A DNA stretch of 64,000 nucleotides from contig NZ_BCQM01000011.1 in assembly GCF_001552075.1 (NCBI RefSeq), positions 1-64,000 of the forward strand, in the 5' to 3' direction. This document shows positions 19 to 21,851 of the stretch, in pieces. Source of the stretch: Arthrobacter luteolus NBRC 107841 (GTDB lineage Bacteria > Actinomycetota > Actinomycetes > Actinomycetales > Micrococcaceae). Made by a program: the position numbers and the translations under genes. Below the pieces are notes generated by a model that searched no databases, had not been told where the DNA came from, and saw only the letters and a program-made list of their open reading frames with translations. The number at the start of each line of letters is the position of its first letter. Position 1 is the first letter of the stretch.

Positions 19-1404
19 CTACCCGTTCACCTTCTCGAACGCCGGAGCACGCCGCTTGTCGAAGATGGTGGCGCCGACTTCCTGCTCCGCCTGGTTGTTG
101 ATGGACAGATCGATTCCCGGCCGGTCCCGCAGCACCAGCACGGCGGCGATGGAGACCACCGTCATGCCCAGCAGGTACAGGGACACCGATGCACTGGTGC
201 CGGTGGAATTGATCAGGGCCTGCGCAATGGTCGGTGCAAACGCCCCGCCCAGGATTGCTCCGAGCGCGTAGGAAATCGAAACCCCGGAGAACCGGACGGA
301 CGCCGGGAAGATTTCGCTGTACCAGGCGGCCTGCGGACCGTAGCTCATGCCCAGCCCGATGGCGAAGAGCCCCAGTGCCAGGTAGAGCATCGGCAGCGAC
401 CCGGTGTCGATCAGCCAGAACAGCGGGAAGACCATCAGCGCCTGGACGCCGAAACCGATCAGGTAGGTCCGTTTCCGGCCGATGGTGTCCGCAACGAATC
501 CGGAGAGCAGCGTGAAAATAAACCACATCGCGGCGGCGAAGGTGATGGCCAGCAGGACATCGGTGCGGTCCAGGCCCACCTTCTCGCCGGTGGCGTAGCT
601 GGGGATGAACCCGCCGGTCGCCATGTAGCCGGCGGCGTTGTTGCCGGCGAAGACCAGGGCAGCCAGGATCACCAGGAGCCAGTGCTTGCGGAACAGCTCA
701 GCGACAGGCACCTTGGTCTGCTGCTTCTTTTCGGCGATCTCCGTGAAGATCGGGGATTCTTCCACCGCCCGGCGCACCAGGTAGCCCACCGCGATCAGCA
801 CAATGCTGAGCAGGAACGGCACCCGCCAGCCCCACTCGATGAATGCCTCGCCCGGGGAAATCCAGCCGGTCATCACGGCGGTCACACCGGAGGCGAGCAG
901 CATGCCCAGGGGAACGCCCAGCTGGGGGAAGGAGCCGGCCCGTCCGCGGCGGCTGGGCGGAGCGTGCTCCACCGCCATCAGGACGGCGCCGCCCCACTCG
1001 CCGCCGGCGGAAATGCCCTGCAGGATCCGCAGCAGCAGCAGTACCACCGGTGCCAGCAGTCCCGCCGTTTCGTAGGTGGGCAGGACGCCGATCAGCGTTG
1101 TGGAGATGCCCATCAGGATGAGCGTCAGGACCAGCATGGGGCGCCGGCCGATCTTGTCGCCAAAGTGCCCGGCCAGGAAAGCACCCAGCGGCCGGAACAG
1201 GAAGCTGATGCCCACGGACGCAAAGGCGAGCAGCAGGCCGATCGACTCGCCGGCCGGTGCGAAGAACACCTGGGCGAAAACCAGGCCGGCGGCTGTGGCG
1301 TAGATGAAGAAGTCGTACCACTCGATGGTTGTGCCGACGATCGTGGCGAAGGCAACGCGGCGCTGCGTCCTCCGGGTACCGGCGTCGGACCGTGGTGTGC
1401 TCAT
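19..1404 (-). CDS. MHS-family MFS permease (aromatic or organic acid uptake)
   Basis: Predicted 12-helix inner-membrane proton symporter of the metabolite:H+ symport (MHS) family, 461 residues, which is normal for the family. The N-terminal motif GTTIEWYDFFIYATAAG, the DKIGRRP loop between helices 2 and 3 and the later DTIGRKRTYLIG loop are MHS signatures. The start is the ATG in MSTPRSDAG; the frame stays open further upstream but without family similarity. It is the last gene of a minus-strand run P450, ferredoxin, reductase, permease with a 53-bp gap, so it probably imports the substrate of the oxygenases. The exact substrate cannot be read from sequence. Confidence 0.88.
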   Translation of the reverse strand: MSTPRSDAGTRRTQRRVAFATIVGTTIEWYDFFIYATAAGLVFAQVFFAPAGESIGLLLAFASVGISFLFRPLGAFLAGHFGDKIGRRPMLVLTLILMGISTTLIGVLPTYETAGLLAPVVLLLLRILQGISAGGEWGGAVLMAVEHAPPSRRGRAGSFPQLGVPLGMLLASGVTAVMTGWISPGEAFIEWGWRVPFLLSIVLIAVGYLVRRAVEESPIFTEIAEKKQQTKVPVAELFRKHWLLVILAALVFAGNNAAGYMATGGFIPSYATGEKVGLDRTDVLLAITFAAAMWFIFTLLSGFVADTIGRKRTYLIGFGVQALMVFPLFWLIDTGSLPMLYLALGLFAIGLGMSYGPQAAWYSEIFPASVRFSGVSISYALGAILGGAFAPTIAQALINSTGTSASVSLYLLGMTVVSIAAVLVLRDRPGIDLSINNQAEQEVGATIFDKRRAPAFEKVNG

Positions 1405-1457: not shown

Positions 1458-2696
1458 CTAGACGAAGCTGGACGCGGCCTGCCGGGCGTAGGCCTTGAGG
1501 CTGAAGCCGGGTGCTGCCGCTTCCTCGGGGGAGGGGCCGCGGCCGGCGGCCAGGAGCTTGCGGGCGCCCAGATGATCCCCTGGCGAATTGACGGATTCGA
1601 CGGCGGCGAGCCGCCCGTCCCGGAAGCACAGGATGGAGAACTTGCCGGCCGCCGGGTCTCCGTTGAGCACGGTGCTGTCCCCGGGGGCGGACAGGCCGGC
1701 GATCTGCAGCCGCAGGCTTCCCTGCGTGCTCCAGAACCAGGGCAGCTCGGTATAGGCCGACGGCGGGCCGAGGATGGTTTGCGCGGCGTGCCGTCCCTGG
1801 TCGGTGGCGTTCTGCACGGATTCCAGCCGGCTCAGGCCACCGGCATGGAGGGAGGGAAAGCTGGCGCAGTCTCCCACCGCGAGGATGGACGGGTCGGAGG
1901 TCCGCAGCGCCTCATCCACCACGATTCCGTTGCCGGTTTCCAGCCCCGCAGCCGCTGCCAGCGAGTCATTGGGTACGACGCCGATGCCCACCACCACGAG
2001 GTCCGCCGGGTAGCGCGCGCCGGTGGTCGAGACGGCTGTACCCACCCGGCCGCCGTCGCCGGCGTCAAAGTGGCTGATGCCTTCGCCCAGCTGCAGCCGA
2101 ACCCCGAGTTCCGCGTGTGCGGCGGCAAACCAGTCGCTCATCGCGGGGCTCAGCGCCCGTCCCATCGGGCGCGGTGCGAATTCCAGCACGGTGACGCTGC
2201 AGCCGCGGGCCCGGGCGGCGGCCGCAAACTCCAGGCCGATGAATCCTGCCCCGACCACCACCACGTCGCGGGCGCCGGCCAGGGCAGCGTGCAGCGTTTC
2301 GGCGTCGCCCAGGGTTTTGAGGCCGTGAACACCGGGCAGGTCCGCGCCAGCGCAGGTGAGGGCACGGTTCGCGGCGCCGGTGGCGAAGACCAGGTGCGCG
2401 TAGGGCAGGGTGCTGCCGTCCTGCAGGGTGACTTCCTTTGCGGCGCGGTCCACCGCAACTACTGCGGTGCCGGCACGCAGCTGGATGTCCTTGCCGGTGA
2501 AGAAGGACGCCGCGCGCAGCGGCAGCGGGGCGGGATCCGCGCCGGGCGCCAGGTAGTCCTTGGACAGCGGTGGACGCTGGTAGGGCAGGCCTGCCTCGTC
2601 CGCCACAATCGTGACGGCGCCGGTGTAGCCGCCGCCGCGCAGGCTGTCCGCAACCTGCAGTCCGGCCTGCCCTCCGCCAATAATGACGACGGACAT
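1458..2696 (-). CDS. FAD-dependent ferredoxin reductase of the P450 system
   Basis: NADH:ferredoxin reductase of the putidaredoxin/rhodocoxin reductase type, 412 residues. It has an N-terminal FAD Rossmann motif (VIIGGGQAGLQVADSL, residues 4-19), the PPLSKDYL segment typical of this family, a second dinucleotide fold (VVVGAGFIGLEFAAAA) for NADH, and the C-terminal FAD-contact segment AVGDCASF. It passes electrons from NADH to the ferredoxin encoded 3 bp upstream, which in turn feeds the P450. The tight spacing and order P450-ferredoxin-reductase make this a complete class I P450 electron-transfer chain. The product is expected in the cytoplasm. Confidence 0.9.
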   Translation of the reverse strand: MSVVIIGGGQAGLQVADSLRGGGYTGAVTIVADEAGLPYQRPPLSKDYLAPGADPAPLPLRAASFFTGKDIQLRAGTAVVAVDRAAKEVTLQDGSTLPYAHLVFATGAANRALTCAGADLPGVHGLKTLGDAETLHAALAGARDVVVVGAGFIGLEFAAAARARGCSVTVLEFAPRPMGRALSPAMSDWFAAAHAELGVRLQLGEGISHFDAGDGGRVGTAVSTTGARYPADLVVVGIGVVPNDSLAAAAGLETGNGIVVDEALRTSDPSILAVGDCASFPSLHAGGLSRLESVQNATDQGRHAAQTILGPPSAYTELPWFWSTQGSLRLQIAGLSAPGDSTVLNGDPAAGKFSILCFRDGRLAAVESVNSPGDHLGARKLLAAGRGPSPEEAAAPGFSLKAYARQAASSFV

Positions 2697-2699
2697 GCG

Positions 2700-3023
2700 C
2701 TACACCTGATCCGTTGGCACGTCGACAATGATTCCCTCGAGCTCGGCACAGGCCTTAACCTGGCAGCCGAGGCGTGAGCGGTCCGTACGCTCGGCAGTGG
2801 TGCAGTCCAGCATTTCCTCCTCGTCGTCGCTGACCGCGGGCAGCGCCGCTGCGAACTCCGGGCGGACATAGACATGGCAGGTGGCGCACATGGCCTGGCC
2901 GCCGCACTCACCGACAATGCCGTCAACTCCGTTGGTCACGGCAGCGCGCATCAGGGAGGTGCCGGGCTCAACCGTCACAACGGCAGGGGTGCCGGAGGGC
3001 TGGATAAAGGTAATGGTGTTCAT
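2700..3023 (-). CDS. [2Fe-2S] ferredoxin, putidaredoxin type
   Basis: Small electron carrier of 107 residues. The cluster ligands are visible as Cys40, Cys46 and Cys49 in GECGGQAMCATC and Cys87 in SRLGCQVK, the C-x5-C-x2-C...C spacing of adrenodoxin/putidaredoxin-type ferredoxins. Three further cysteines (for example Cys74) are not expected ligands. It sits between the P450 gene (35-bp gap) and the reductase gene (3-bp gap), so its partners are almost certainly these two proteins. The start is an ATG preceded by an AGGAGA-like ribosome binding site. Confidence 0.92.
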   Translation of the reverse strand: MNTITFIQPSGTPAVVTVEPGTSLMRAAVTNGVDGIVGECGGQAMCATCHVYVRPEFAAALPAVSDDEEEMLDCTTAERTDRSRLGCQVKACAELEGIIVDVPTDQV

Positions 3024-3058
3024 GGTTCTCCTAGCAAAGACAGGTCAAAGTCAGGGGT

Positions 3059-4372
3059 TTAGCCCCAGAGGACGGGCATCTTGACCAGGCCGCGGAAGAC
3101 CCAGCCGGCGTCGATGGAAGCGTTGTCCGGGTCCAGCCGCAGTCCGGGCAAACGGTCGAAGAGGGCGGGCATGGCGACCTGGGCCACCTGCGCCCGGGCG
3201 ACCCAGGTGCCGGCACAGAAGTGTGCGCCGCCGCCGAAACCCAGGTGCGGCTTCTTCGGCCGGTCGATGTTGAAGGTCTCCGGATCCTCGAAGACCTTGG
3301 GGTCGCGGTTAGCTGCACCCAGCACCACGCCGATCCGCGCCCCCTTAGGCAGGCGCACCCCTTCCAGGACCGTGTCCCGGGTGACCTCGCGGGGGTACAT
3401 GCCGATGGGTGCCACCCAGCGGACGGATTCCTCGAAGGCCGTGGCGTAGCGTTTCGGATCCCCGTTGATCGAGGCCAGCTGGCCGGGGTTGTTGAGCAGG
3501 GCCCAGACGGTGGTGGCGAGGACGTCGCGTGGTTCGTTCAGGCCGCCGCCGATGGTCATTTTCAGGTTGGCGCGGATTGCTTCCAGCGGGATCGGCAGGG
3601 ACGCCAGACCGGAGAGCAGTGAATGGTCCGGATTGTCCTTCAGGTACGGCAGCATCTCGTCGATGGCGGTATCCACCTCGGCTGAGGACTGCGCGCTCTT
3701 CGCCCAGACCCCGGCGTCGTCGGCGTAGTTGCCGGTGCCGTCGATCATGGTCTGGCTCCAGCGCTGCATATCCGCCTGGGTGGCGTTGTGGAAGCCGCAG
3801 ATCAGGCGGAGGTTCTCGGCTGCGTACGGTGCCGCGTAGTCCCAGACAAAGTCGGCACCCGGTCCCTTCTGCTCCAGCTCGCTGAGGTACTTCTCATTGT
3901 TGGCCTCGAAGACCGCGTTCCAGTGGTTCTTGATCGTTCCCGGCCGGAGCGTGCTGCCGTAGGAGTCCCGGTCCCGCTTGTGCTCCGGATCGTCCTTGCG
4001 CAGCATCGAGTGGCCCATGGCGCGCTTCATCAGCGAACCCGTCTCGTTGGCGGAGAAGGTCTCTGCGTCCTGTTCGATGGTGTGGCACGCCGCGTAGCTG
4101 GTCACCATGTAGCGGTTGACAGCAGGGACCCAGTGCACGGAAGCCTCTTCGCGCATCCGGCGGTAGATCGGGAACGGATCCCGGTACAGGTCCGGGATGG
4201 TCACCCAGTCCGCCACCGGTGCCTCGCGGGAGGGCGCCTCGCGGGACGGCGGTTCGTCCGCTGCCGGAACGGGAAGCGGAGGAGCCAGCGGGGTTTCGGC
4301 AGCAGGTCCGGCGTCTTGGCCTGCTCCGGTAAAGGGGCAGCCGGCGGTTTCCGTTGTTCCCGGGAAGGTCAT
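3059..4372 (-). CDS. Cytochrome P450 with E-P variant I-helix motif
   Basis: Soluble bacterial P450 of 437 residues. The heme-binding loop is FGGGAHFCAG with Cys386 as the iron ligand, and the K-helix ExxR is Glu315-Arg318. The I-helix reads GGGLNEPRD: the usual acid-Thr pair is Glu280-Pro281. As I recall it, the same Glu-Pro replacement occurs in guaiacol O-demethylase GcoA (CYP255A), although overall similarity looks distant; CYP288-type alkylphenol hydroxylases are another possibility. About 55 Pro/Ala-rich N-terminal residues, with a short repeat REAPSREAP, precede the P450 fold. The start at MTFPG is chosen because AGGAGAGAAACG lies just upstream. It is first in the operon with ferredoxin and reductase, divergent from a LysR gene. 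Substrate inferred only: a phenolic ether or alkylphenol. Confidence 0.9.
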   Translation of the reverse strand: MTFPGTTETAGCPFTGAGQDAGPAAETPLAPPLPVPAADEPPSREAPSREAPVADWVTIPDLYRDPFPIYRRMREEASVHWVPAVNRYMVTSYAACHTIEQDAETFSANETGSLMKRAMGHSMLRKDDPEHKRDRDSYGSTLRPGTIKNHWNAVFEANNEKYLSELEQKGPGADFVWDYAAPYAAENLRLICGFHNATQADMQRWSQTMIDGTGNYADDAGVWAKSAQSSAEVDTAIDEMLPYLKDNPDHSLLSGLASLPIPLEAIRANLKMTIGGGLNEPRDVLATTVWALLNNPGQLASINGDPKRYATAFEESVRWVAPIGMYPREVTRDTVLEGVRLPKGARIGVVLGAANRDPKVFEDPETFNIDRPKKPHLGFGGGAHFCAGTWVARAQVAQVAMPALFDRLPGLRLDPDNASIDAGWVFRGLVKMPVLWG

Positions 4373-4420
4373 CGTTTCTCTCCTGGTGGGTGGGTTGGCG
4401 TCGACACGTCTGAGACCAAG

Positions 4421-4436
4421 TGTGGTGTGGATCATA
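4421..4436. promoter_or_regulatory. Candidate operator, copy 1 of a motif shared with the flavin monooxygenase promoter
   Basis: TGTGGTGTGGATCATA lies in the 119-bp divergent region between the P450 operon and the LysR gene. A 14-of-16 identical copy is upstream of the flavin reductase gene at 5453-5468. It is probably a binding site for the LysR or the AraC regulator of this locus; which one is not clear. Confidence 0.45.
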
Positions 4437-4491
4437 TCCCCGGTAAAGTACAAGAAAGAGTCCACCATCCACGGTTTTAGCGAGGTTATGC

Positions 4492-5388
4492 ATGGCCCGG
4501 TACACGCTGCGGCAGCTGGAGGCCTTCGTGGCCGTGGCCGAGCAAGGCAGCATCGCCGCGGCGGCCGCGTCCCTGCACGTCTCCCAGTCCGCGGTGTCCG
4601 GCGCGGTCAACAACCTGGAGCGGGTCTTCGACGCCCAGCTGACGATCCGGCGCAAGGCCCACGGCGTCACCCTCACCGCTGCCGGCCAATATGTGCTGAC
4701 CCGCGCCAAATCCCTGCTGGTGGAGGCCACTGATCTGGAGCTGCATGCCGGTAATTCCGGCGCGGACCTCCGCGGTTCGCTGACTGTCGGCTGCTATCTC
4801 ACGCTGGCGCCGACCGTGCTGGCGAGGCTGATTGACCACTACGGCCGGCGCCACCCCCTGGTGGAGCTCGATTTCTTCGACGGCCCGCAGACCGAGGTGC
4901 AGCGCCGGCTGGCCACCGGCCGGCTCGACGTCGCCATCGCCTATGACCTGTCCCTCCCCGCCGGGCTGAACCGGCAGAAGCTCTACGACACGGAGCCGTC
5001 GATTGTGCTGTCCGCCGAGCATCCGCTGGCTGGCCGCGAGGACCTTGCCCTGGCCGACGTCGCCGCGGAACCGATGATCCTGCTGGACGTGGATCCCAGC
5101 CGTGAAAACACCATGACCATGTTCGACGGCGCCGGGCTGCGGCCTAACATCCGGTTCCGGACGACTGATTATGAGGTGACGCGTTCCCTGGTGGGCCGGG
5201 GCATGGGCTACGCGATCCTGGTCCAGCAGCCAGCCGGCGGCCAGTCCTACGAGGGCCGGCCCGTGGTGGTGCGCCGGATCCGCCCGGCCGTGCGTTCGGT
5301 GCCGGTTTCCATCGTCTGGCCGGCTGCCGTCCGCCCGTCGCAGAGCGTCAGTGCCATGCTCGACCTCGCCGCTGAGCTCTACGTCTGA
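4492..5388 (+). CDS. LysR-family transcriptional regulator
   Basis: 298 residues, full length for the family. The winged helix-turn-helix spans about residues 1-65 (LRQLEAFVAVAEQGSIAAAA followed by LHVSQSAVSGAVNNLE). The LysR substrate-binding fold follows (SLTVGCYLTLAPTVLARLID, then the ligand-pocket segments AIAYDLSL and ADVAAEPMILLD). It is divergent from the P450 operon and upstream of the flavin reductase gene, the classic position for an activator responding to a pathway substrate. The ATG at 4492 is preceded by GCGAGG and matches the family start. Confidence 0.92.
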   Translation: MARYTLRQLEAFVAVAEQGSIAAAAASLHVSQSAVSGAVNNLERVFDAQLTIRRKAHGVTLTAAGQYVLTRAKSLLVEATDLELHAGNSGADLRGSLTVGCYLTLAPTVLARLIDHYGRRHPLVELDFFDGPQTEVQRRLATGRLDVAIAYDLSLPAGLNRQKLYDTEPSIVLSAEHPLAGREDLALADVAAEPMILLDVDPSRENTMTMFDGAGLRPNIRFRTTDYEVTRSLVGRGMGYAILVQQPAGGQSYEGRPVVVRRIRPAVRSVPVSIVWPAAVRPSQSVSAMLDLAAELYV

Positions 5389-5452
5389 CGCCTGCGCTGT
5401 GGCGCACATCCCCTGCGCTCCCGGCCCACCAGGACCCGGCCGCCGTTCCTAA

Positions 5453-5468
5453 TGTGGTGTGGAACACA
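5453..5468. promoter_or_regulatory. Candidate operator, copy 2 of the shared motif
   Basis: TGTGGTGTGGAACACA lies 30 bp before the flavin reductase start. It matches the motif at 4421-4436 in 14 of 16 positions, with the core TGTGGTGTGGA identical. Its presence ahead of both oxygenase modules suggests one regulon. Confidence 0.45.
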
Positions 5469-5498
5469 AGAAGCCCCGCACCCCTAAGGAGTTCCCGG

Positions 5499-6029
5499 AT
5501 GACTGCTGAACTGCTGGAAACCCCCGTGGCCGGACCGATTCACCAGGCCGGTCCCGCTGACCGGATTGATCCGGTGAAGCTGCGCAACACCTTTGGCAAC
5601 TTCACCACCGGCGTGACGATCGTCAGCTACGAACACAACGGCGAGGTGCTTGGCGCCACCGTCAATTCCTTCACTTCCGTCTCCCTCGACCCGCCGCTGG
5701 TGCTGGTCTCCCTGATGAAGACGGCGAAGGCCGCCGCCCTGCTGGCGGATAAGCCCTTCAGCATCAACGTGCTCGGCAAGGATCAGCTTTCCCACGCCCT
5801 GCAGTTCGCCGGCAAGCCGCAGGACGGCCTGGAGATCGATTGGAACCGGGAGCACACCTCCCCGCGGATCGCCGGCTCAATGGCCTGGTTCAGCTGCGAA
5901 CCCTGGCAGCAGTACGACGGCGGCGACCACGTCCTGGTCCTCGGCAAGGTCACGGCCTTTGGAGACGCGGCCGACGACGACGCCGGGCCGCTGGTCTTCT
6001 ACCGCGGCGGCTGGCGCGGCCTCGCCTAA
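5499..6029 (+). CDS. Flavin reductase, small component of two-component monooxygenase
   Basis: 176 residues with the flavin reductase-like split-barrel domain over residues 24-174: [33 protein letters not shown] and [14 protein letters not shown] are family signatures (HpaC/PheA2 type). It would reduce FMN or FAD with NAD(P)H and supply free reduced flavin to the monooxygenase encoded 67 bp downstream. The start is the ATG in MTAELLETP, 8 nt after TAAGGAG; an upstream in-frame start has no ribosome binding site and crosses the promoter motif. Confidence 0.9.
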
Positions 6030-6096
6030 GCGAACGCCCACCCCACCCCAACTTCCCCCAGCAGTGCAATCACACCTGTGCAAAGGAGCATCCAGC

Positions 6097-7716
6097 ATGA
6101 CCACCACCGAACCCGCCGCCGAACCGGCCGCGGACGCCCAGGCAGCGCCCGGCGTCGTACCCCCTGCCGGTGAAACCGCCGCCCGCCCGATGAACGGTGC
6201 GGAGTACCTGGACTCCATCCGGGACGACCGTGAGGTCTACATTTACGGCGAGCGGGTCAAGGATGTCACCACCCACCCGGCGTTCCGCAACTCCGCCCGG
6301 ATGATCGCCCGGCAGTACGACGCGCTGCATGACCCCAAGACCAAGGACGTGCTGACCGTCCCCACGGACACCGGCAACGGCGGCTACACCCACGCGTGGT
6401 TCAAGGCACCGAAGTCCGCTGAGGACCTGCTCAAAGGCCGCGACGCGATCGCCGCCTGGGCCAAAATGTCCTACGGCTGGATGGGTCGCTCACCGGATTA
6501 CAAGGCCTCCTTCCTGGCCAGCCTCGGCGCCAACGACGAGTTCTACAACCCGTACCAGGCCAACGCCCAGCGCTGGTACAAGGAGGCGCAGGAGAAGGTC
6601 CTGTACTGGAACCACGCGATCGTGAATCCGCCGATCGACCGGCACAAACCCGCCGACGAGGTGGGGGATGTGTTTGTGCACGTGAAGAAGGAGACCGACG
6701 CCGGGGTGATCCTCTCCGGTGCCAAGGTGGTTGCCACCGGCTCGGCGATCACCAACATGAACTTCATTGCCCACTACGGCATGCCGATCAAGGACAAGCG
6801 GTTCGCGATCGTCGCCACCCTGCCGATGGATGCCCCGGGGCTGAAGCTGATCTCCCGCGCCTCCTACGCCATGACCGCGGACGTGATGGGCAGCCCGTTC
6901 GATTACCCGCTCTCCTCCCGGCTGGATGAAAACGACGCGATCCTGATCCTCGACGACGTCCTGGTGCCGTGGGAGAACGTGTTTATTTACGGTGACGTGG
7001 AGAAGGTCTCGCAGTACTCGGTGCGCTCGGGGTTCAAGTCCCGGCTGCTGCTGCACGGCTGCACCCGGCTGGCCGTGAAGCTGGACTTCCTCACCGGGCT
7101 GCTGGTGAAGTCCCTGGAGCTGACCGGCACCGCCGACTTCCGCGGTGTGCAGACCCGGGTGGGCGAGGTGATGGCGATCCGGCACCTGTTCTGGTCCCTG
7201 TCCGAGGCGATGGCCCGCAACCCCGAACCGTGGAAGGGCGGGCGCGAGGGGTACGTGCAGCCGGACCGGATCGCCTCGATGGCCTACTCCTGGTTCTCCA
7301 CCACGCAGTACCCGAAGATCCGCGAGATCGTGCAGAAGGATCTGGGTGCCGCGCTGATCTACCTGAACTCGCATGTCTCGGACTTCGGCAACGAGGACAT
7401 CCGCGGCTACCTGGACAAGTATGTGCGCGGTTCCAATGGCATCGATTCGCTGCAGCGGGTCAAGACGCTCAAGGCCCTGTGGGACGCCACCAACTCCGAG
7501 TTCGGCTCCCGCCACGAACTCTACGAGCGCAACTACCAGGGCAACCATGAGGGTGTCCGGCTGGAAATCCTCAACGTCACCAAGGGTTACGGCCTCACGG
7601 ACCAGTTCACCGCGTTCGCCGATGAGTTCATGGGAGAGTATGACGAGAACGGCTGGACCGTCCCGGACCTGTTCGGCAACGAGGACGTGAACATGATCGG
7701 CAAGTTCAACCTCTAG
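6097..7716 (+). CDS. HpaB-type flavin-dependent aromatic hydroxylase, large component
   Basis: 539 residues, matching the 4-hydroxyphenylacetate 3-hydroxylase (HpaB) family, which also contains phenol and nitrophenol hydroxylases. Family blocks are visible: [20 protein letters not shown] (N-terminal), [38 protein letters not shown], and [20 protein letters not shown]. The first 30 residues are a low-complexity Ala/Pro stretch. It is expected to ortho-hydroxylate a phenol to a catechol with reduced flavin from the upstream reductase. The gene order reductase, hydroxylase, AraC regulator resembles the nph and pheA loci of Rhodococcus, which favours a phenol or nitrophenol-type substrate over 4-hydroxyphenylacetate. 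AAAGGAG precedes the ATG. Confidence 0.9.
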
Positions 7717-7765
7717 CGCCGGTTTGCGGGGTGCCGGAGCAGCGGGAATGGGAGGAACGGCAACA

Positions 7766-8728
7766 ATGGAGTCGCGTAGCTACACCGTGCACACAGCCCC
7801 GGACCTGCCCCGCTGGCGTGCCCTGGTGGATGATCTCCTGCTGCCGCTGGATATCCGCAGCGACCACCCCTCCTTCGGCGCCACCATTGAAGCGGTGGCG
7901 GTTAACGGCATCCGGCTGTTTACCGTCACCGCCGGTCCGCACCACGCGGACCGCACCGACCGGCTGGCCAGTGCCGGTGCGTCCTCCGGGGCGGACCCGT
8001 TCTTCACCATTTCGCTGCAGCTGGAGGGGAGCAGCAGCATTGAACAGGGCGGCAGCCACGCGCTGCTGCAGCCCGGGGACTTCACCGTCTACGACTCCAC
8101 CCTGCCCTACACCCGCAGGTTCGACGGGCACTCCTCGTCTCTGGTCGTGATGTTCCCGCAGCAGCTGATCAGCCTGCCGCCGCAGGCGCTCGCCGGGATC
8201 GCGGGGCAGGCCATCTCGGGTGCTGCCGGAACCGGAGCGATCGTCTCCGCCTTCCTGACCGGGGTCGCCCGGAACCTTCCGGCCCTGGACGGAAAACTCG
8301 GGCTCGGCCTGGCAGGATCCATGGTGGACCTGGTGACCGCCGCGTTTGCCGATGCGATGGGCTTCCACCCGGTGTCGTCGTCGCGCCTGGAACAGGCCAT
8401 GACCGTGCGGAACTGGATCATGGACCGCCTGGGTGACCCCGGGCTCAGCCCCGGCGCCATCGCAGCGGGGAACTTCATCTCCACCCGGCAGCTGCACCTG
8501 CTGTTCCGGGAACAGGGCACCACAGTGTCCACCTGGATCCGGGAGCGCCGGCTGGAGATGGCCCGCCGCGACCTCGCAGATCCGCTGCGCGCCGAGGACC
8601 CGGTGGCCGCCGTCGCGCAGCGCTGGGGTTTCGCCGACGCCCGGCATTTTGCCCGCGTCTTCAAGGCTGCTTATGGCAGCCCGCCGGTGCAGTACCGCCG
8701 GGCAGGGCTGGGCCTGGCTTCCGGCTAA
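7766..8728 (+). CDS. AraC-family regulator, AraC_binding_2 type
   Basis: About 320 residues. The N-terminal sensor half contains PFFTISLQLEGSSSIEQGG and LLQPGDFTVYDSTLPYTRRF, typical of the AraC-binding-like cupin found in NphR- or ChnR-type regulators. The C-terminal double helix-turn-helix is visible in GAIAAGNFISTRQLHLLFRE, ERRLEMARRDLADP and VAQRWGFADARHFARVFKAA. It lies 49 bp after the monooxygenase gene on the same strand. NphR-type proteins activate adjacent two-component phenol hydroxylase genes, so it probably does that here. The start MESRSYTV is preferred (GGGAGGAACGG upstream); an ATG 18 bp earlier is possible. Confidence 0.88.
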   Translation: MESRSYTVHTAPDLPRWRALVDDLLLPLDIRSDHPSFGATIEAVAVNGIRLFTVTAGPHHADRTDRLASAGASSGADPFFTISLQLEGSSSIEQGGSHALLQPGDFTVYDSTLPYTRRFDGHSSSLVVMFPQQLISLPPQALAGIAGQAISGAAGTGAIVSAFLTGVARNLPALDGKLGLGLAGSMVDLVTAAFADAMGFHPVSSSRLEQAMTVRNWIMDRLGDPGLSPGAIAAGNFISTRQLHLLFREQGTTVSTWIRERRLEMARRDLADPLRAEDPVAAVAQRWGFADARHFARVFKAAYGSPPVQYRRAGLGLASG

Positions 8729-8804
8729 CAGCGGGTGGGAGATGCGCACGGGCCGCTGACCAGCGGATTCGGAGCACCGGCCCGGGATCCGGATACTGGA
8801 AGGC

Positions 8805-15512: not shown

Positions 15513-16904
15513 TCACTGCCCGCTGAACAGGTCCGACAGCCCGCGGATCAGCCAGGGATGCCACCAGGCCCAGTCATGGCCGCCGCTGATGGAGTGGAAG
15601 GCTGTATCGACGCCGTTGCCGGCCAATGCGGTGTTGAGCTGCCCGGCCGGTTCATGGATGCTCGGTTCGTAGCGGCCTGCCTGGAACCGGATCCGGAGCG
15701 GTTCCTGAACCGCCAGCAGGGGCTCGGTCAGGTCATAGCGCCAGAGCGAGGGTGACTGTGCCAGGGCCGTGCCGGCAGCCCGTGGGTATCTTGCCAGCTG
15801 CCAGAGCGCGGCGAGTCCGCCGTAGCTGGCGCCGGAAACCACTGTCTGCAGCGGATCCGGTATGACCGGAAGGGCCCGGCGGAGTTCCGGCAGCAGGTCC
15901 CGGGCCACGAAGTCGACGCTCCCCGTCGGGCCGGACAATTCGCGGGAACGCGTAGAGACATCCACCGAATCAATCATGGCCACGTGCAGGGGAGGGAGGA
16001 CACCGCCGGCAATGGCCCGGTCCAGGGTGGCGGGCAGGTTCTGGTACTTCGCCCAGACCTGGCCGTCGTGCAGCAGGACCAGCGGCGTGGGGCGGCTGAC
16101 GGAGACACGGGGCCGGTACAGCCAGACGTTTCGCAGCTGGCCCGACTCCCGGTCCCGGACCCGCCGCAGTTCCAGCCCCCGCACGAAGTCGCCCAGGACA
16201 TGCCGCGGTCCGGGAACGGGCCGGGCCAGCGGGCTGCCGGCCGGCGGAAATCCGAAGCCTTTGGCAGCCTGAACGCTGCCGGCACGGGCAGGCTCACCCA
16301 TAATGCTGGCTCCGGCTTCCGCAGCCGGTGTGGGCGCGGCGAGCCACCCGGCGGAGGGAGCGGCCGGCAGCCGGAGCACCGACGTCGGTGCTCCGGACAT
16401 CCCCGTGCCCAGGGCGGGATTCCGCGGATCCGGACCGCCGGCGTCGGCCGCCAGACGCACGGACCGCCGGTCAACCGCGGACTGCCAGGGCGCGGGCAGC
16501 GCTCTGGTGTGCACAGTGATCCGGTAGCTGGTTTCCCAGTCGGCGGGCATGCGCCAGGTCAGGGCCCACACTCCGGCCGGCAGCGCTTCGAACTCACAGG
16601 ACGCCGCGGTATCCGGATGCACCATGGCATTCGCCGAGAGGATCACCGCCGTGGCCCCCGGATCGCGGTACAGGAAGGTGACCGCGCGGATCGCCGGATC
16701 ACCCTCCGGGTCCGCTTCGACCAAGGGGAGTTCCCGGGAATCCCAGCCTGCGAGGAGCTGCTCCCGCTCGGGTGCGGAGAGGGTGTCCCAGTGCGCGCGG
16801 AAGTGTCCCGCCAGCGCCCGGACCGGCACCGCCGGCTGCGGAACGGGCTCGCGCGGCGGCGGGAAGTTCCCCTCTGCCGTGGGGGCCAGGATGTCAGTGC
16901 CCAT
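15513..16904 (-). CDS. Enterochelin esterase-type siderophore hydrolase
   Basis: 463 residues without signal peptide, so cytoplasmic. An N-terminal enterochelin-esterase domain (AVTFLYRDPGATAVILSANA, GVWALTWRMPADWETSYRIT) is followed by an alpha/beta hydrolase with nucleophile Ser in VVSGASYGG and catalytic His in SISGGHDWAWW. It hydrolyses imported ferric siderophore esters, probably catecholate trilactones, to release iron. It is the last gene of the iron operon and its start overlaps the end of the siderophore-interacting protein by 11 bp. Confidence 0.9.
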   Translation of the reverse strand: MGTDILAPTAEGNFPPPREPVPQPAVPVRALAGHFRAHWDTLSAPEREQLLAGWDSRELPLVEADPEGDPAIRAVTFLYRDPGATAVILSANAMVHPDTAASCEFEALPAGVWALTWRMPADWETSYRITVHTRALPAPWQSAVDRRSVRLAADAGGPDPRNPALGTGMSGAPTSVLRLPAAPSAGWLAAPTPAAEAGASIMGEPARAGSVQAAKGFGFPPAGSPLARPVPGPRHVLGDFVRGLELRRVRDRESGQLRNVWLYRPRVSVSRPTPLVLLHDGQVWAKYQNLPATLDRAIAGGVLPPLHVAMIDSVDVSTRSRELSGPTGSVDFVARDLLPELRRALPVIPDPLQTVVSGASYGGLAALWQLARYPRAAGTALAQSPSLWRYDLTEPLLAVQEPLRIRFQAGRYEPSIHEPAGQLNTALAGNGVDTAFHSISGGHDWAWWHPWLIRGLSDLFSGQ

Positions 16905-17766
16905 GTGCGTGCGCCTGCTGGTGATGGTGGTGGTCCTCTTCCTGCCCGGGCAGAATCGTCTCCAGTTCGCCCTCCACCCTGTCGTGGTCCGTGGCGCGTC
17001 CGTAGCTGACTTCGTCGCTGCCGCGGTTCCAGTACCCGATGATCAGCTGCTGCTTCCGGGGGAAGCCGAGCGACTTTAACCGGGTCCGGGCGTAGCGGAC
17101 GACGGCGGATTCCGCGGACACCCAGATCTGCACTTCACCGGCGGCCAGCTCAGCGGCGGGGAACTCGACAGCGGCCAGCGCCTCCTGCAGGAGCGTGGTG
17201 GAGCCCGGCTGCGCGCCGTGGCGGTGCAGCCAGCGGATTTCCACGCCTGCCGGGGCATTGAGCTCCTGCTCTTCAGCCGGTCCATCGACCTCGATCAGGA
17301 CCAGTCCGCGCTGCTGCGGGCCAAAGCGTTCAATCGTGCCGCCAATGGCCGGCAGGGCCGTCTCATCACCGGCCAGCAGTACCCAGGCTGCGTCGCCCAC
17401 CACCACCCCGCCGCCGGCCAGGGCCGCGATTTGGCTGCCCGGGACGGCGGTCTCCGCCCAGGCCGCCGCAACGGATGTCCCGGCGTGCCGCACAAAGTCC
17501 ACGCTCAGCGTGGAAGCGTCCGCCGCCAGGGTGCGGACAGTGTAGGTGCGCACCCGTTCCCGCTGGCCTGGCTTCCACTCCCAGCCGCGCTCACCGCGGT
17601 AGGGCAGGTCCAGGGGCTCGCCCGGTGCCGGGAAAAAGAGCTTGACGTTGGGGATGTGGGCGCCCGCGTTCACGTATCCGGCAACCCCGGGGCCGCCGAA
17701 GTGGACCCGCCGCATTAGCGGGGTCACGTCTTCGACGCGTTCGACGGTGAGGATATGGCCGCTCAT
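16894..17766 (-). CDS. Siderophore-interacting protein, FAD ferric reductase (ViuB type)
   Basis: 290 residues. The N-terminal FAD domain carries the RVRTYTVR motif (RxYTxR) and the C-terminal half is the SIP NAD(P)H-binding domain (GDAAWVLLAGDETALPAIGG, IGYWNRGSDE). It reduces Fe(III)-siderophore in the cytoplasm. The last residues, EEDHHHHQQAHAHGH, form a His-rich tail that is not part of the conserved fold and is encoded partly in the overlap with the esterase start. Starts with an ATGA overlap to the ATPase gene. Confidence 0.92.
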   Translation of the reverse strand: MSGHILTVERVEDVTPLMRRVHFGGPGVAGYVNAGAHIPNVKLFFPAPGEPLDLPYRGERGWEWKPGQRERVRTYTVRTLAADASTLSVDFVRHAGTSVAAAWAETAVPGSQIAALAGGGVVVGDAAWVLLAGDETALPAIGGTIERFGPQQRGLVLIEVDGPAEEQELNAPAGVEIRWLHRHGAQPGSTTLLQEALAAVEFPAAELAAGEVQIWVSAESAVVRYARTRLKSLGFPRKQQLIIGYWNRGSDEVSYGRATDHDRVEGELETILPGQEEDHHHHQQAHAHGH

Positions 17767-18695
17767 GCAGGTGCTCCTTCGGTAAGCGGTGCCGGAATGC
17801 CGGGCTGAGGGGTAAGGCCGGGCTGAGAGGTAATGCCGGACCGGGGAGTTCCGGTGCCGGGAAGGCCGTGCAGGTGACCTCCGGAGGGGGCCAATCCGCC
17901 GCTTCCAAGGTCCTCCGGTTCCAGGGGAACCACCAGCGGGCCCCCGGTTGCGGGGTCGGGGATGACGAGTGCCTCGATCCCGTAGATTTCCTTCATCAGT
18001 TCCGGAGTGGCGATTTCCGCGGGCGTGCCCTGGGCCACGATCCGGCCGTCCTTCATCGCGATCACATGGTCGGCGAAGCGGAAGGCCATGCCCAGTTCAT
18101 GCAGCACGGTCACCAGCGTGTAGTTGCCGGTGCGGTGCAGGCCCCGGCACAGCCGCAGCACCTCCAGCTGGTGCGCGATGTCCAGGAACGTGGTGGGCTC
18201 ATCCAGCAGCAGCACCGGGGTGTCCTGGGCCAGGACCAGGGCCAGCCAGACCCGCTGCCGCTGCCCGCCGGAGAGTTCCCCCACGGTGCGGTCGGCGAGG
18301 TCCTGCACTCCGGTGGCAGCCAGCGCGGCGTCGACGGCCTGCTGGTCCGCTTCCGACCACTGCCGCAGCAGCGACTGGTGCGGGAACCGGCCGCGGGCCA
18401 CCAGATCCGCCACGGTGATGCCGTCCGGCGCCGTCGACGTCTGGGGCAGCAGCGCCAGCTGCCGCGCCACCTCGCGGGTGGGGTAGGAAGTAATGTCCTT
18501 GCCCTGCAGGAAGACTTCCCCCGCCGCGGGCTTCAGCAGCCGCGAGAGGGCCCGCAGCAGGGTGGACTTGCCGCAGGCATTCGGGCCAATGATGGCGGTG
18601 AAGGAACCGGGCGGGATCCGCACGTCCAGGTGCTCGGAGACCGTACGGCCCTCGTAGCCGATGGTCAGGCCGCGGCCGGAGAGGACGTCTTCCAT
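17763..18695 (-). CDS. Siderophore ABC transporter ATP-binding protein (FecE/FepC type)
   Basis: 310 residues. Walker A GPNACGKSTLLRAL, signature [13 protein letters not shown], Walker B VLLLDEPTTFLD and the family tail MKEIYGIEALVIPDP are all present. About 45 extra C-terminal residues are Gly/Pro-rich (GLTPQPGIPAPLTEGAPA) and not part of the fold. The start MEDVLSG follows AAGGAG. It energises the two FecCD permeases encoded upstream. Confidence 0.94.
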   Translation of the reverse strand: MEDVLSGRGLTIGYEGRTVSEHLDVRIPPGSFTAIIGPNACGKSTLLRALSRLLKPAAGEVFLQGKDITSYPTREVARQLALLPQTSTAPDGITVADLVARGRFPHQSLLRQWSEADQQAVDAALAATGVQDLADRTVGELSGGQRQRVWLALVLAQDTPVLLLDEPTTFLDIAHQLEVLRLCRGLHRTGNYTLVTVLHELGMAFRFADHVIAMKDGRIVAQGTPAEIATPELMKEIYGIEALVIPDPATGGPLVVPLEPEDLGSGGLAPSGGHLHGLPGTGTPRSGITSQPGLTPQPGIPAPLTEGAPA

Positions 18696-18734
18696 GGGGT
18701 TCTCCTTGGTGGGCAGGGGGTGAGGGGGCACCGG

Positions 18735-19784
18735 TCAGACCTGCTTGCTGCGGGTCAGGAGCCAAAGCAGGTACACGCCGCCGACCAGCCCGGTCATCAG
18801 ACCGATCGGAATGGCCGCCTGGATGGGCAGCCGCTGTGAGAGCAAGTCCGAACCTGCCACCAGCACAGCGCCCATCAGGGCGCCGGTGCCGATGTGGACG
18901 CCGGGGGAGCGGGTCAGCCGGGAGGCGAGCTGGGGTGCGGCGAGGGCGACGAAAACGATCGGGCCGGCGGCCGCCGTTGCCACGGCCGTGAGCCCAACTG
19001 CGGCGGCCATGGCGATGATCCGGGTGCGTTCGGTCCGGATGCCCAGCGCGCGGGCGGCGTCGTCGCCCATTTCCATCTGGTTCAGGTTCCGGGACAGTCC
19101 CAGCAGCACCGGCAGCAGGAGCGCGACGGCGATCAGCACCGGAACGGCATGGCCCCAGTTCCGTGCGGCCAGGGAACCGGAGAGCCAGAGGTGCGCCTCC
19201 GCGGCCAGATCGGAATCTCCTTTGGCCAGCAGGATGGTGTTCACGGCGGCGAGCATGGCACCGACCCCGATGCCGATCAGCACCAGCCGGTAGCCGCCGG
19301 TCACCCCGCCGCTGAGTGAAAGCAGGTAGACAACGCCGGCTGCCAGCAGCCCGCCTGCGATCGCCGCGAGGGCGGTGGCGCCCGGGCCGGCGTCGAACAG
19401 CACGATCTGCGCCACCGCTCCGGTGGCGGCACCGGTGGTGAAGCCGATGATGTCCGGCGAGCCCAGGGCGTTGCGGGAAATCGATTGGAAGGTGGCGCCG
19501 GCCGCGCCGAGGCAGGCACCAACGCCCAGGGCAGTGACGGTGCGCGGCAGGCGGATTTTCTGCACAACCTTCAGGGTTTTGTTCTCTCCCTGACCGAAGA
19601 CGGCACCCAGCACATCGCCGAACGCCAGCGCGATCGTGCCGGTCTGCATACCGGCAATGCCAAGCACGACGGCGGCGGCTGCCAGGATGGCGCCGGTCAC
19701 CAGGGTCCGGCGGCGGTAGCGCAGCCGCACCGGACCCAGAGCCAGTGTGCGGGTGCGGGCCGGTCCGGTCTTGAGGGCGCTCAC
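18735..19784 (-). CDS. FecCD-family siderophore permease, second subunit
   Basis: 349 residues, GTG start overlapping the stop of the preceding permease gene. About nine to ten helices. FecCD landmarks are IRLPRTVTALGVGACLGAAG, FQSISRNALGSPDIIGFTTG and the C-terminal FVALAAPQLASRLTRSPG. Forms the transmembrane channel with the other subunit for ferric siderophore import. Confidence 0.93.
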   Translation of the reverse strand: MSALKTGPARTRTLALGPVRLRYRRRTLVTGAILAAAAVVLGIAGMQTGTIALAFGDVLGAVFGQGENKTLKVVQKIRLPRTVTALGVGACLGAAGATFQSISRNALGSPDIIGFTTGAATGAVAQIVLFDAGPGATALAAIAGGLLAAGVVYLLSLSGGVTGGYRLVLIGIGVGAMLAAVNTILLAKGDSDLAAEAHLWLSGSLAARNWGHAVPVLIAVALLLPVLLGLSRNLNQMEMGDDAARALGIRTERTRIIAMAAAVGLTAVATAAAGPIVFVALAAPQLASRLTRSPGVHIGTGALMGAVLVAGSDLLSQRLPIQAAIPIGLMTGLVGGVYLLWLLTRSKQV

Positions 19785-20800
19785 AGCTTTGCCAGCTTCC
19801 GCCGCCGGGCCAAGGCGATGAAGAAGGGAGCGCCAACCAAGGCGCTCATGACGCCGGCACCGATTTCGGCGGGCGCGGCAATAACCCGGCCAACCACGTC
19901 GGCGAAGAGGAGCAGGAGCGCGCCGAGGAGCATGGACAGCGGCAGCAGCCGGCGGTGGGTTGGACCGGTGATCATCCGGGCGATGTGCGGCGCGGCGAGG
20001 CCGAGGAAGGCGATGGGACCGGCGGCGGCGGTGGCGGCGCCGGCCAGGATGAGGATGGCGAGGGCGCCAAAGATCCAGGTGGTGCGGATCCGCACGCCCA
20101 GGGTCCGGCCCAGGTCAGCGCCGAGTGACATGGAGTCCAGGCTCCGGGAGAGCGGCAATGCCATCAGCACGGCGAGCAGGCACGCGCCGAGGACCCAGGG
20201 GAGCACATCGTAGCCGCGGCCCTGGAGGGAGCCGGAGGCCCAGGCCGCGTAGGCGGTGATGGTTTCGTCCGGCCCGCCGATCAGGATGATCTTGGTGCCC
20301 GCGATCAGCATCACGGAGAGCCCGGCACCGGCCAGGACCAGGCGCACCGGGTTGGTGCCGGCGTCGTGCGCCCGTCCCAGCAGGTAAACCAGCACGGAGG
20401 TGGCGGCCGCGCCCGCAAAACCCAGCCACATGTACTGGTACGGGGACCTCATGTTGAAGAAGCCCAGGCCGATGGCGACGGCGAGGGCAGCGCCGGCGTT
20501 GACGCCCAGCAGGCCCGGTTCGGCCAGCGGGTTGCGGGTCAGCGCCTGCATCAGGGCTCCGGCCAGGCCCAGGGCGGCGCCGACCGTGATGGCCAGGAAA
20601 GTACGCGGCAGGCGCAGCTCCCGGACCAGCAGGTGGGTGTCCTGGGACGGGTCAAAGGCGGTCAGGGCCGCCCAGGTATCGGCCAGGGGAATGGTTCGCG
20701 AGCCGGAGGCAAAGCTGGCAAACGCCAGCAGCACCAGCAGGGCCAGGCCGAGGGCCCAGGCACTTGCCTGCCGGTGCTGCTTGCGCGGGGTTTGGAACAC
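19781..20800 (-). CDS. FecCD-family siderophore permease, first subunit
   Basis: 339 residues, GTG start. FecCD landmarks LRLPRTFLAITVGAALGLAG, ALTRNPLAEPGLLGVNAGAA and FLGLAAPHIARMITGPTHRR are visible. It lies 44 bp after the binding-protein gene. Two distinct FecCD genes in tandem is the usual arrangement for a heterodimeric permease. Confidence 0.93.
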   Translation of the reverse strand: MFQTPRKQHRQASAWALGLALLVLLAFASFASGSRTIPLADTWAALTAFDPSQDTHLLVRELRLPRTFLAITVGAALGLAGALMQALTRNPLAEPGLLGVNAGAALAVAIGLGFFNMRSPYQYMWLGFAGAAATSVLVYLLGRAHDAGTNPVRLVLAGAGLSVMLIAGTKIILIGGPDETITAYAAWASGSLQGRGYDVLPWVLGACLLAVLMALPLSRSLDSMSLGADLGRTLGVRIRTTWIFGALAILILAGAATAAAGPIAFLGLAAPHIARMITGPTHRRLLPLSMLLGALLLLFADVVGRVIAAPAEIGAGVMSALVGAPFFIALARRRKLAKL

Positions 20801-20844
20801 GTGCTGCGATTCCCTGTTTCTGCGTTGGTGGCCGCTGGCGCCGG

Positions 20845-21851
20845 CTACTTGGCCGCGAAGGAGGTGCTGAACCAGTCGATGATGTCGCTGGCGCTGAAGT
20901 AATCGAGGCGGAAGGACTCCGGGCCCATCGAGTACACCTGTCCGGCCTGCACTGAGGGCAGGTTGGCCAGGGTCGGATCGCCGGTGAAGGCCTCCACCGT
21001 GGCTTCGGTGGAGCTGATCAGGAAGGTGTAGTCACCGGTCACGGAGGCGGACAGGCCCTCGTACGAGGTGAAGGCGAAGTCTTCGCGCTTCTGGGTGGAG
21101 GTGTCGAACTGCTCGTCCGGGTCCACGACGGTGAAGCCCAGGGCGGTGACCAGCTGGGAGTGCGGGCCGGTGCTCTTACCGACCGGGGAGACGTCCCCGG
21201 CGTTGAAGCTGACGATCGAGGCGGTGGTGCCCGCTTCGATGGCCATGGCTTCGGCGGTCTCGGCGACGGAAGCGTCGAACTCTTCGACGACGGAAGCAGC
21301 CTTCTCCTCGAGGCCGGTGGCTTCGCCAAGCTCCTCGGCCAGGTCCTGCCAGGTCTGGTCGCCGTAGTTGACCACGATGGTCGGGGCGATCTCGCTCAGC
21401 GCGTCGTACTGGTCCAGCACCGAGTCGGCGCCGGAGGTGGAGACAACAATCAGGTCCGGGTCCTCGGCGATGACGGCTTCGAGGTCCAGCTCGCCGATCG
21501 TGTAGAGGGGCTCGACGCCGCGTTCCACAGCCACGTCAGCCCACTGGGTGAAGAAACCGTTCTCGTCCGCGGTGCCGCTGCGGGCGGTGCTGACGGAGGT
21601 GGAAGTCACGGGGGCATCAATGGCCAGCAGGGTGCCGGTGACCGAAAGTGAGGTGGAGACAATGTTCTCCGGCTTGGCGTCGATGACGGTCTCGCCTGCT
21701 CGTGCACGATGGTGCGGGGCCATTGCGCGGTGGCGGCAGCGCTCTCGGTGGATTCGGCCTCGGCGGAACCGTTGCTGCAGGCTCCGAGGGTGAGGGCCAT
21801 AACCGCTGTGGCGGTGAGTGCCAGGGCCTTTTTAGGCAGGGGAAGACGCAA
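20845..21851 (-). pseudogene. Ferric siderophore-binding lipoprotein, frameshifted near residue 51
   Basis: The N-terminal part reads MRLPLPKKALALTATAVMAL-TLGACSNG, a signal peptide with lipobox LGAC, from a TTG start preceded by TTTAGGAG. After TAQWPRTIVHE the frame breaks: the conserved continuation AGETVIDAKPENIVSTSLSV is in the +1-shifted frame. Adding one G (minus strand) at about 21699 restores a normal FepB/FecB-like protein of about 335 residues ending FSASDIIDWFSTSFAAK. An ATG at 21723 could start a version without a signal peptide, which would be useless for uptake. It is either a real inactivating deletion or a sequencing error; the rest of the gene and operon is intact. Confidence 0.85.

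Follow-up and report, generated by a model that had tools for sequence, protein, structure and literature searches.

The first 64 kb of the 81.5-kb contig C11 (NZ_BCQM01000011.1) in the 3.9-Mb genome of Arthrobacter luteolus NBRC 107841, hereafter the window (64,000 nucleotides; position 1 is the first base of the contig), open with a locus in which a cytochrome P450 and an HpaB-type oxygenase are encoded side by side. Two modules that differ in distribution make up the locus, one comprising a LysR regulator divergent from P450, ferredoxin, ferredoxin reductase, and in some cases a metabolite:H+ symporter (MHS) permease, and the other comprising flavin reductase, HpaB, and an AraC regulator. 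Based on sequence comparisons, we give a probability of about 60% to the reading that it is a two-entry upper pathway, both entries converging on 3,4-dihydroxyphenylacetate (homoprotocatechuate), the ring of which would be cleaved by enzymes encoded elsewhere. The P450 unit is common among relatives, and the HpaB unit appears to be a guest beside it.

Domain scans placed four genes of the locus on the minus strand, in the 5' to 3' order cytochrome P450 (3059..4372; p450, 5.8e-19), 2Fe-2S ferredoxin (2700..3023; Fer2, 2.6e-6; fdx_isc model, 1.3e-12, below cut-off), flavin adenine dinucleotide (FAD) ferredoxin reductase, the class I P450 redox partner (1458..2696; Pyr_redox_2, 1.8e-69; Reductase_C, 1.6e-24), and MHS-family permease (19..1404, from a likely ATG at 1404 within the open reading frame [ORF] 19-1629; TIGR00883, 384.7 bits, below the cut-off of 443.45). 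The plus strand carries, in order, a LysR-type regulator (4492..5388; LysR_substrate, 1.1e-38; HTH_1, 2.4e-19), an HpaC-like flavin reductase (5499..6029, likely ATG at 5499 in an ORF from 5454; Flavin_Reduct, 1.1e-33), the HpaB-type oxygenase, presumably FADH2-dependent (6097..7716, likely ATG at 6097 in an ORF from 5959; HpaB_N, 7.6e-94; HpaB, 4.5e-57), and an AraC-type regulator (7724..8728; AraC_binding_2, 1.5e-28; HTH_18, 3.5e-20). Although the P450 ORF extends over 3059-4468, its start is more likely at 4372 (437 amino acids) than at 4468, because AGGAG precedes that ATG and several relatives begin there. Judged by gene content, the P450 is of class I, with a separate ferredoxin and FAD ferredoxin reductase beside it, and the HpaB_N and HpaB domains together with the adjoining flavin reductase place the second oxygenase among the two-component hydroxylases of the HpaB superfamily. 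All locus proteins except the ferredoxin matched their families at 1e-18 or better; these strong matches, and the recurrence of the P450 unit in other genera, argue that the locus is not a product of chance. A first-pass annotation made from the letters of the sequence had described a P450 with its own ferredoxin and reductase next to an HpaB-type hydroxylase with its flavin reductase, and all of its domains, orders, and strands hold. The two regulators and the permease that it listed are also present (LysR, AraC, and MHS), but it drew the locus too short, leaving out the AraC gene and nearly all of the MHS gene.

The boundary between the modules is evident from the gene-neighborhood comparison across Arthrobacter that the first-pass annotation had proposed. 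The P450 is found in 7 of 29 genomes of the genus, this one included. At all six other loci, LysR lies back to back with the P450 and the ferredoxin reductase follows the P450; our own gene-calling script called a ferredoxin in two of the six, and a permease was found in two. The gene next to LysR in those six relatives is the one found at 8805 in the window. Homology to the six stops at 5386-5392 and restarts at 8749-8750 (the two nearest relatives) or 8788-8789 (the four others), and the ∼3.36 kb encoding flavin reductase, HpaB, and AraC is missing at this place in every one of them. This inserted module (5387..8748), with a GC content of 66.3% versus 67.3% for the window, stands where the two nearest relatives have 61 and 87 bases. 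A search for mobile-element ends turned up just one 8-base direct match shared by the 120-base border regions. A match to the window HpaB at 1e-60 was seen in this genome alone among the 29, and close HpaB kin, with 91.6 and 92.7% identity, occur in 2 of the other 394 genomes of a 395-genome sample of the family.

All six same-genus relatives that have the P450 locus also encode HpaD, and none has this HpaB. As the P450 unit is kept in these genomes without the HpaB module, its product should be usable without this HpaB, which leads us to prefer a parallel entry to homoprotocatechuate over two serial steps. The first-pass annotation had proposed two successive oxidations at this locus; given the six relatives, parallel entries fit better.

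Beyond the genus, P450 kin with 65% identity or more occur in 48 of the 395 family genomes, and matches at an E value of 1e-120, fused and more distant forms included, occur in 69. We compared 79 P450 loci, drawn from the best 80 of 93 relatives that were found by peptide patterns in named genomes; 7 of these loci span less than 12 kb, and in several more one flank is short. Genes were called with our own GC-frame script. Because this script overlooks genes in lower-GC genomes and misplaces starts, the numbers given for LysR, ferredoxin reductase, MHS, and ferredoxin kin (65, 48, 44, and 34 of the 79 loci, respectively) are lower bounds. LysR kin lie most often just upstream on the opposite strand, and MHS kin are up to 96% identical to the window permease. 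The best matches in plasmid records were P450s at less than 60%, MHS at 61%, and HpaB at 66%.

The kinship of the P450 points to phenylacetates as probable substrates. Its best match among solved structures is PDB 6g71 (474.8 bits; the next scores 180.4), with identity in 208 of 391 columns (53%). We take 6g71 to be CYP1232A24 of a papaverine-degrading Arthrobacter, a demethylase of methoxyphenylacetates that reportedly converts homovanillate and 3,4-dimethoxyphenylacetate to 3,4-dihydroxyphenylacetate. P450 families are delimited by at least 40% identity to a named member, and the window protein lies above this threshold for CYP1232 by way of 6g71, if the name that we give to that structure is right. 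The genome announcement of a papaverine-degrading Arthrobacter (PMC4440947) does not name the P450. The window P450 has the I-helix motif GGLNEPRD and the heme motif FGGGAHFCAG, and the pattern GG[LVIM]NEP, shared with 6g71, recurs in 82 of 83 P450 matches at the 79 loci (all except that at L084); GcoA has QEP at this position. In our tree, a quick version, the nearest rows come from Arthrobacter gallicola, A. pullicola, A. agilis, A. citreus, and Arthrobacter sp. Edens01. Structure 6g71 does not fall in the clade of the window P450, for which the substrate is predicted; it groups with a clade whose other 24 rows are all single long reading frames.

The filing of the P450 with CYP255 in the first-pass annotation was not upheld. 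Identity to the GcoA chain 6yco is 29% (109 of 378 aligned residues), under the 40% family threshold, so we rejected CYP255A (GcoA/AgcA). CYP255A enzymes work with a single GcoB-type reductase, whereas a separate Fer2 ferredoxin and Pyr_redox_2 reductase stand beside the window P450.

Several relatives of the P450 adjoin genes of the homoprotocatechuate pathway. An HpaD match lies within ∼10 kb of P450 kin at 6 of the 79 loci, in six genera: Saccharopolyspora indica (L052), a member of the Nocardiopsaceae (L056), Nesterenkonia sedimenti (L084), Phytohabitans flavus (L092), Martelella mediterranea (L095), and Qaidamihabitans albus (L098). In the four that were scanned (L056, L084, L095, and L098), HpaD and HpaE exceed their NCBIfam cut-offs; HpaD at L052 and L092 was identified by tblastn alone (80% and about 57%). 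At L098, P450, ferredoxin reductase, an HpaG-like protein, a dihydrodipicolinate-synthase-like aldolase, HpaE, and HpaD are encoded on one strand, and L056 likewise has these genes on a single strand, interspersed with a ferredoxin gene and three others. The Martelella locus combines HpaE, HpaD, P450, ferredoxin reductase, flavin reductase, and HpaB in one 21-kb stretch; a Mesorhizobium locus (L094) has P450 and HpaB with no HpaD match. With one hpaD placed at random in every 4 Mb, ∼0.4 loci of this kind would be predicted; six or more would have a Poisson probability of 4e-6, a figure that takes no account of kinship or of the general tendency of catabolic genes to cluster. The HpaD-neighbor label changes 7 times on the P450 tree, compared with 6.8 for shuffled labels, indicating that this neighborhood is scattered over the tree.

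The HpaB-type oxygenase also has relatives in such surroundings. A 34-row tree places it in a separate clade shared with L101 and L102 alone (support, 100/100), apart from 27 family relatives and from PDB 6qyh. The window-type HpaB kin at L130 and L131 lie near an HpaG-like protein and an HpaE over cut-off, and L131 also holds HpaD (350.5 bits versus a cut-off of 321.4, despite a run of N in one stretch); their flavin reductases are 64% identical to that of the window, and their AraC kin are 66 to 67% identical. Window-type HpaB occurs in 3 of the 395 family genomes, all of which also have the P450 and an HpaB-1 set (HpaB-1, 46 of 395), and in the other two the HpaB is on another contig than the P450 (Fisher P of 0.005 for window-type HpaB versus P450, with no correction for kinship). 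We take the clade of the 27 other relatives to be PheA-like. Five of its eight loci that were fetched hold a catechol 1,2-dioxygenase cluster (four scanned, all over cut-off), and the likeness to pheA-type systems drawn in the first-pass annotation was therefore not borne out for the window protein as far as tested.

Among solved structures, the window HpaB is 54.6% identical to 6qyh, which we take to be the 4-hydroxyphenylacetate (4-HPA) 3-monooxygenase HpaB, presumably of E. coli, and 61.5% identical to 4oo2, a chlorophenol-4-monooxygenase that we take to be SgcC. All three share the domain pair, and the window protein has a flavin reductase beside it; R, Y, and H, presumably active-site residues, align, and the loop around query residues 226-235 is by eye like that of 4oo2 and unlike that of 6qyh. 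Judging by genomic context, the window HpaB probably belongs with the homoprotocatechuate pathway. It may not be the main 4-HPA hydroxylase, and this is the weakest link of the explanation.

The first-pass annotation had placed ring cleavage outside the locus, and we indeed found no relative of HpaD, HpaE, HpaG-like, PcaG, PcaH, or CatA queries in the 64-kb window (tblastn, 1e-4), while hpaD and hpaE lie on contig C8 and an HpaG-like gene lies on C20. HpaD is encoded at 128.6-129.6 kb of C8 (443.7 bits versus the cut-off of 321.4). HpaE runs off the end of C8 as a fragment (model positions 68-488; 590.6 bits, under the cut-off of 638.35; L144:18216-19463), and by likeness to genome G005 its beginning stands at the start of C20 (L158:2-436), beside a GntR-family gene and the HpaG-like gene. 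The split suggests that the two contigs probably adjoin. G005 has the whole run of HpaG-like, GntR, HpaE, and HpaD genes, HpaE and HpaD both over cut-off. Arthrobacter strain Rue61a grows on 4-HPA and tyrosine through homoprotocatechuate, according to PMC3534580, and a lower pathway of this kind is thus expected. As in the hpa pathway of that strain, HpaD, HpaE, a GntR-family gene, and an HpaG-like gene are present here, although the window feeders lie apart from them. Three proteins of the genome matched PF00775, namely protocatechuate 3,4-dioxygenase alpha and beta (C1, over cut-off) and a protein with a partial domain and no NCBIfam match at 1e-30; with only these three matches, no catechol 1,2-dioxygenase was found. 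Several two-domain glyoxalase proteins are also encoded, and neither of the two that were scanned exceeded an NCBIfam cut-off.

In the two-entry pathway that we favor, the MHS permease would probably import a methoxylated, presumably plant-derived phenylacetate, and the P450 would receive the electrons of NAD(P)H by way of its reductase and 2Fe-2S ferredoxin, with LysR as the presumed switch. The P450 would most likely O-demethylate homovanillate or a related methoxyphenylacetate to homoprotocatechuate. In the inserted module, presumably controlled by AraC, the flavin reductase would supply reduced flavin to the HpaB-type oxygenase, which would ortho-hydroxylate a hydroxyphenylacetate-like phenol to the same catechol; coexpression of the genes would be expected. 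HpaD, HpaE, and the HpaG-like protein from the other contigs would then cleave the ring and process the product. HpaD is present in the genome and near some kin of both oxygenases; a common catechol product, to be opened by this extradiol dioxygenase, is a prediction.

Several observations weigh against this convergence. The window HpaB scores below both class cut-offs (685.9 versus 885.2 for TIGR02310, HpaB-2; 268.1 versus 480.2 for HpaB-1). A second HpaB set on C8 of the same genome (107.1-110.7 kb; L153:7056-10665) consists of a flavin reductase, an HpaB that passes the HpaB-1 cut-off (563.8 versus 480.2), and an MHS permease 53% identical to that of the window; the window HpaB may accordingly act on another substrate. 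Structure 6g71 sits on a long branch of the P450 tree, its place flagged as unsure, with fused forms and outside the window clade. The HpaG-like gene on C20 is over cut-off for PRK12764, with the HpaG models below theirs; resting the HpaG name on PRK12764, like the flagged branch, slightly lowers our confidence. Of the 79 P450 loci, 73 have no HpaD match in the flanks examined, and the 25 rows of the largest starred clade around the window, itself included, have none at all; the selection by which the 79 loci were obtained also counts on this side. Loci L060, L075, and L085 have flavin reductase and AraC kin near the P450 and no HpaB match, indicating that P450s of this family also adjoin other systems; another two-component oxygenase may sit there.

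Neither of two co-occurrences across the family lends the pathway support. We rejected that of P450 with HpaD, since nearly every genome encodes HpaD (357 of the 395 in the family and, as read from the lists, 62 of the 69 in which the P450 matched). HpaB-class matches occur in 31 genomes, 20 of which have a P450 match, versus 69 of 395 overall (naive Fisher P, 1e-9), and we gave this enrichment no weight since most of the matches belong to the other clade and follow genus. As read from the lists, all 10 genomes of g8 have a P450 match and 9 have an HpaB match, and in g7 the P450 is present in 2 of 5 genomes with HpaB versus 5 of 15.

Alternatively, the two modules could be chance neighbors, the HpaB module serving an unrelated phenol (phenol, cresol, nitrophenol, or chlorophenol) and having merely landed beside the P450 unit. 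The insertion missing from all six relatives, the sub-threshold HpaB scores, and the HpaB-1 already present in the genome speak for this, as does the published relative AphAB, which takes alkylphenols and not 4-HPA (PMC6710988). We nevertheless consider it unlikely, because the two closest HpaB relatives have hpa genes around them, all three genomes with window-type HpaB have both the P450 and the HpaB-1 set (even if on separate contigs in the other two), and no catechol 1,2-dioxygenase was found in the genome. No better odds attach to the tentative idea that window-type HpaB is a new specificity class within the homoprotocatechuate pathway, acting where HpaB-1 does not, its move beside the P450 reflecting a link between them; candidate substrates would be such compounds as 3-hydroxyphenylacetate, a still methoxylated phenylacetate, or another P450-linked intermediate.

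Successive oxidation, in which the P450 would O-demethylate 4-methoxyphenylacetate to 4-hydroxyphenylacetate for the adjoining HpaB to convert to homoprotocatechuate, seems to us improbable. The modules do adjoin here, para-demethylation by a CYP1232 member has reportedly been described, and at L052 an unrelated FAD hydroxylase (FAD_binding_3, Phe_hydrox_dim) lies between the P450 unit and hpaD, all of which we counted in its favor. A further point is an 11-mer, TGTGGTGTGGA, that occurs both upstream of the divergent P450/LysR pair (4421-4431) and upstream of the flavin reductase (5453-5463); a shared word of this length was reached in 2 of 1,000 shuffles. This word is a possible common operator, though a weak lead; it is missing from the L015-L017 promoters (by eye) and from L130 and L131. 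The divergent promoter region itself (4373..4491) has a stretch similar to five relatives in a by-eye comparison. Against serial use stand the six same-genus relatives with the P450 unit and without this HpaB, as well as L052, L056, L084, and L098, where the P450 lies near hpaD with no HpaB match in the flanks examined. Finally, an agc-aph-like funnel, in which guaiacols would go to the P450 for demethylation and alkylphenols to the HpaB for hydroxylation, is very improbable despite the architecture shared with the RHA1/EP4 cluster, given the 29% identity to the GcoA chain, the separate ferredoxin and reductase, and the HpaD matches at 6 of 79 P450 loci.

The agcAB-aphAB genes of Rhodococcus rhodochrous EP4 and of RHA1 are nonetheless the closest precedent for a two-entry locus. 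As described in PMC6710988 and PMC13101465, they unite a P450 O-demethylase, a two-component flavin hydroxylase, and AraC regulators in one cluster, and both oxygenases likewise lie in one locus here. By comparison with those accounts, the window P450 belongs to another family and is accompanied by a ferredoxin and a reductase as separate proteins, the queries used, which did not include AphC, revealed no extradiol dioxygenase in the window, the predicted product is homoprotocatechuate instead of an alkylcatechol, and the modules are joined by an insertion not seen in relatives. The locus brings two known module types together in a new combination, within a type of funnel that is itself known, Rhodococcus Agc/Aph being the published precedent. 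We found no description of it in the literature searched, and claim nothing stronger.

All Rhodococcus strains tested in PMC9867520 failed to grow on homovanillate, so a P450 route for this compound would be of use. The proposed pathway defines a testable substrate class, methoxy- and hydroxyphenylacetates, for a P450 with kin in 48 of the 395 family genomes, and draws the attention of work on lignin aromatics to P450s that may take phenylacetates instead of guaiacols. It also offers a view of funnel assembly in which one feeder module is set beside another and the ring-cleavage core (hpaD, 357 of 395) stays elsewhere.

The 24 same-family P450s encoded in one long frame (L065-L074, L076-L083, L086-L089, L093, and L099) span 911-1425 amino acids, with starts not fixed; examples are L071:9983-13378 and L080:9980-13066. 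Their P450 is followed by a Rossmann FAD/NAD(P) region that we read as an FprA/adrenodoxin-type reductase, the reductase signature being present in 24 of 24 by typed motifs. A C-terminal flavodoxin was found in all six that were scanned by Pfam, and the flavodoxin signature in 19 of 24 by typed motifs. Judging from these domains and motifs, the frames are natural P450-reductase-flavodoxin fusions, and no description of such a fusion was found in the titles and abstract beginnings returned by one literature search.

In genome G065 (L159:8500-16026), copper amine oxidase, AraC, MHS, and an HpaB-1 set lie near hpa genes and a window-type HpaB, an arrangement that suggests a tyramine-to-homoprotocatechuate route. 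In the genome of L131, a second flavin reductase-HpaB set with MHS, AraC, and copper amine oxidase begins ∼7 kb beyond HpaD, and the set on C8 of the A. luteolus genome is similar. Two other same-genus genomes encode HpaB_N proteins over the Pfam cut-off (G007:C1:3590786-3591580 and G013:C3:544092-544883) that match neither the window HpaB at 1e-60 nor HpaB-1 at 1e-150, and neither genome has a P450 match at 1e-40. Beyond the AraC gene, the window encodes an ABM-domain protein, a HAAS-domain protein, PadR, a GyrI-like protein, a major facilitator superfamily (MFS) carrier, and MarR, as well as a siderophore-uptake block (15513-21723) with an enterochelin-esterase-like protein, a siderophore-interacting protein, an ABC ATPase, and a periplasmic binding protein.

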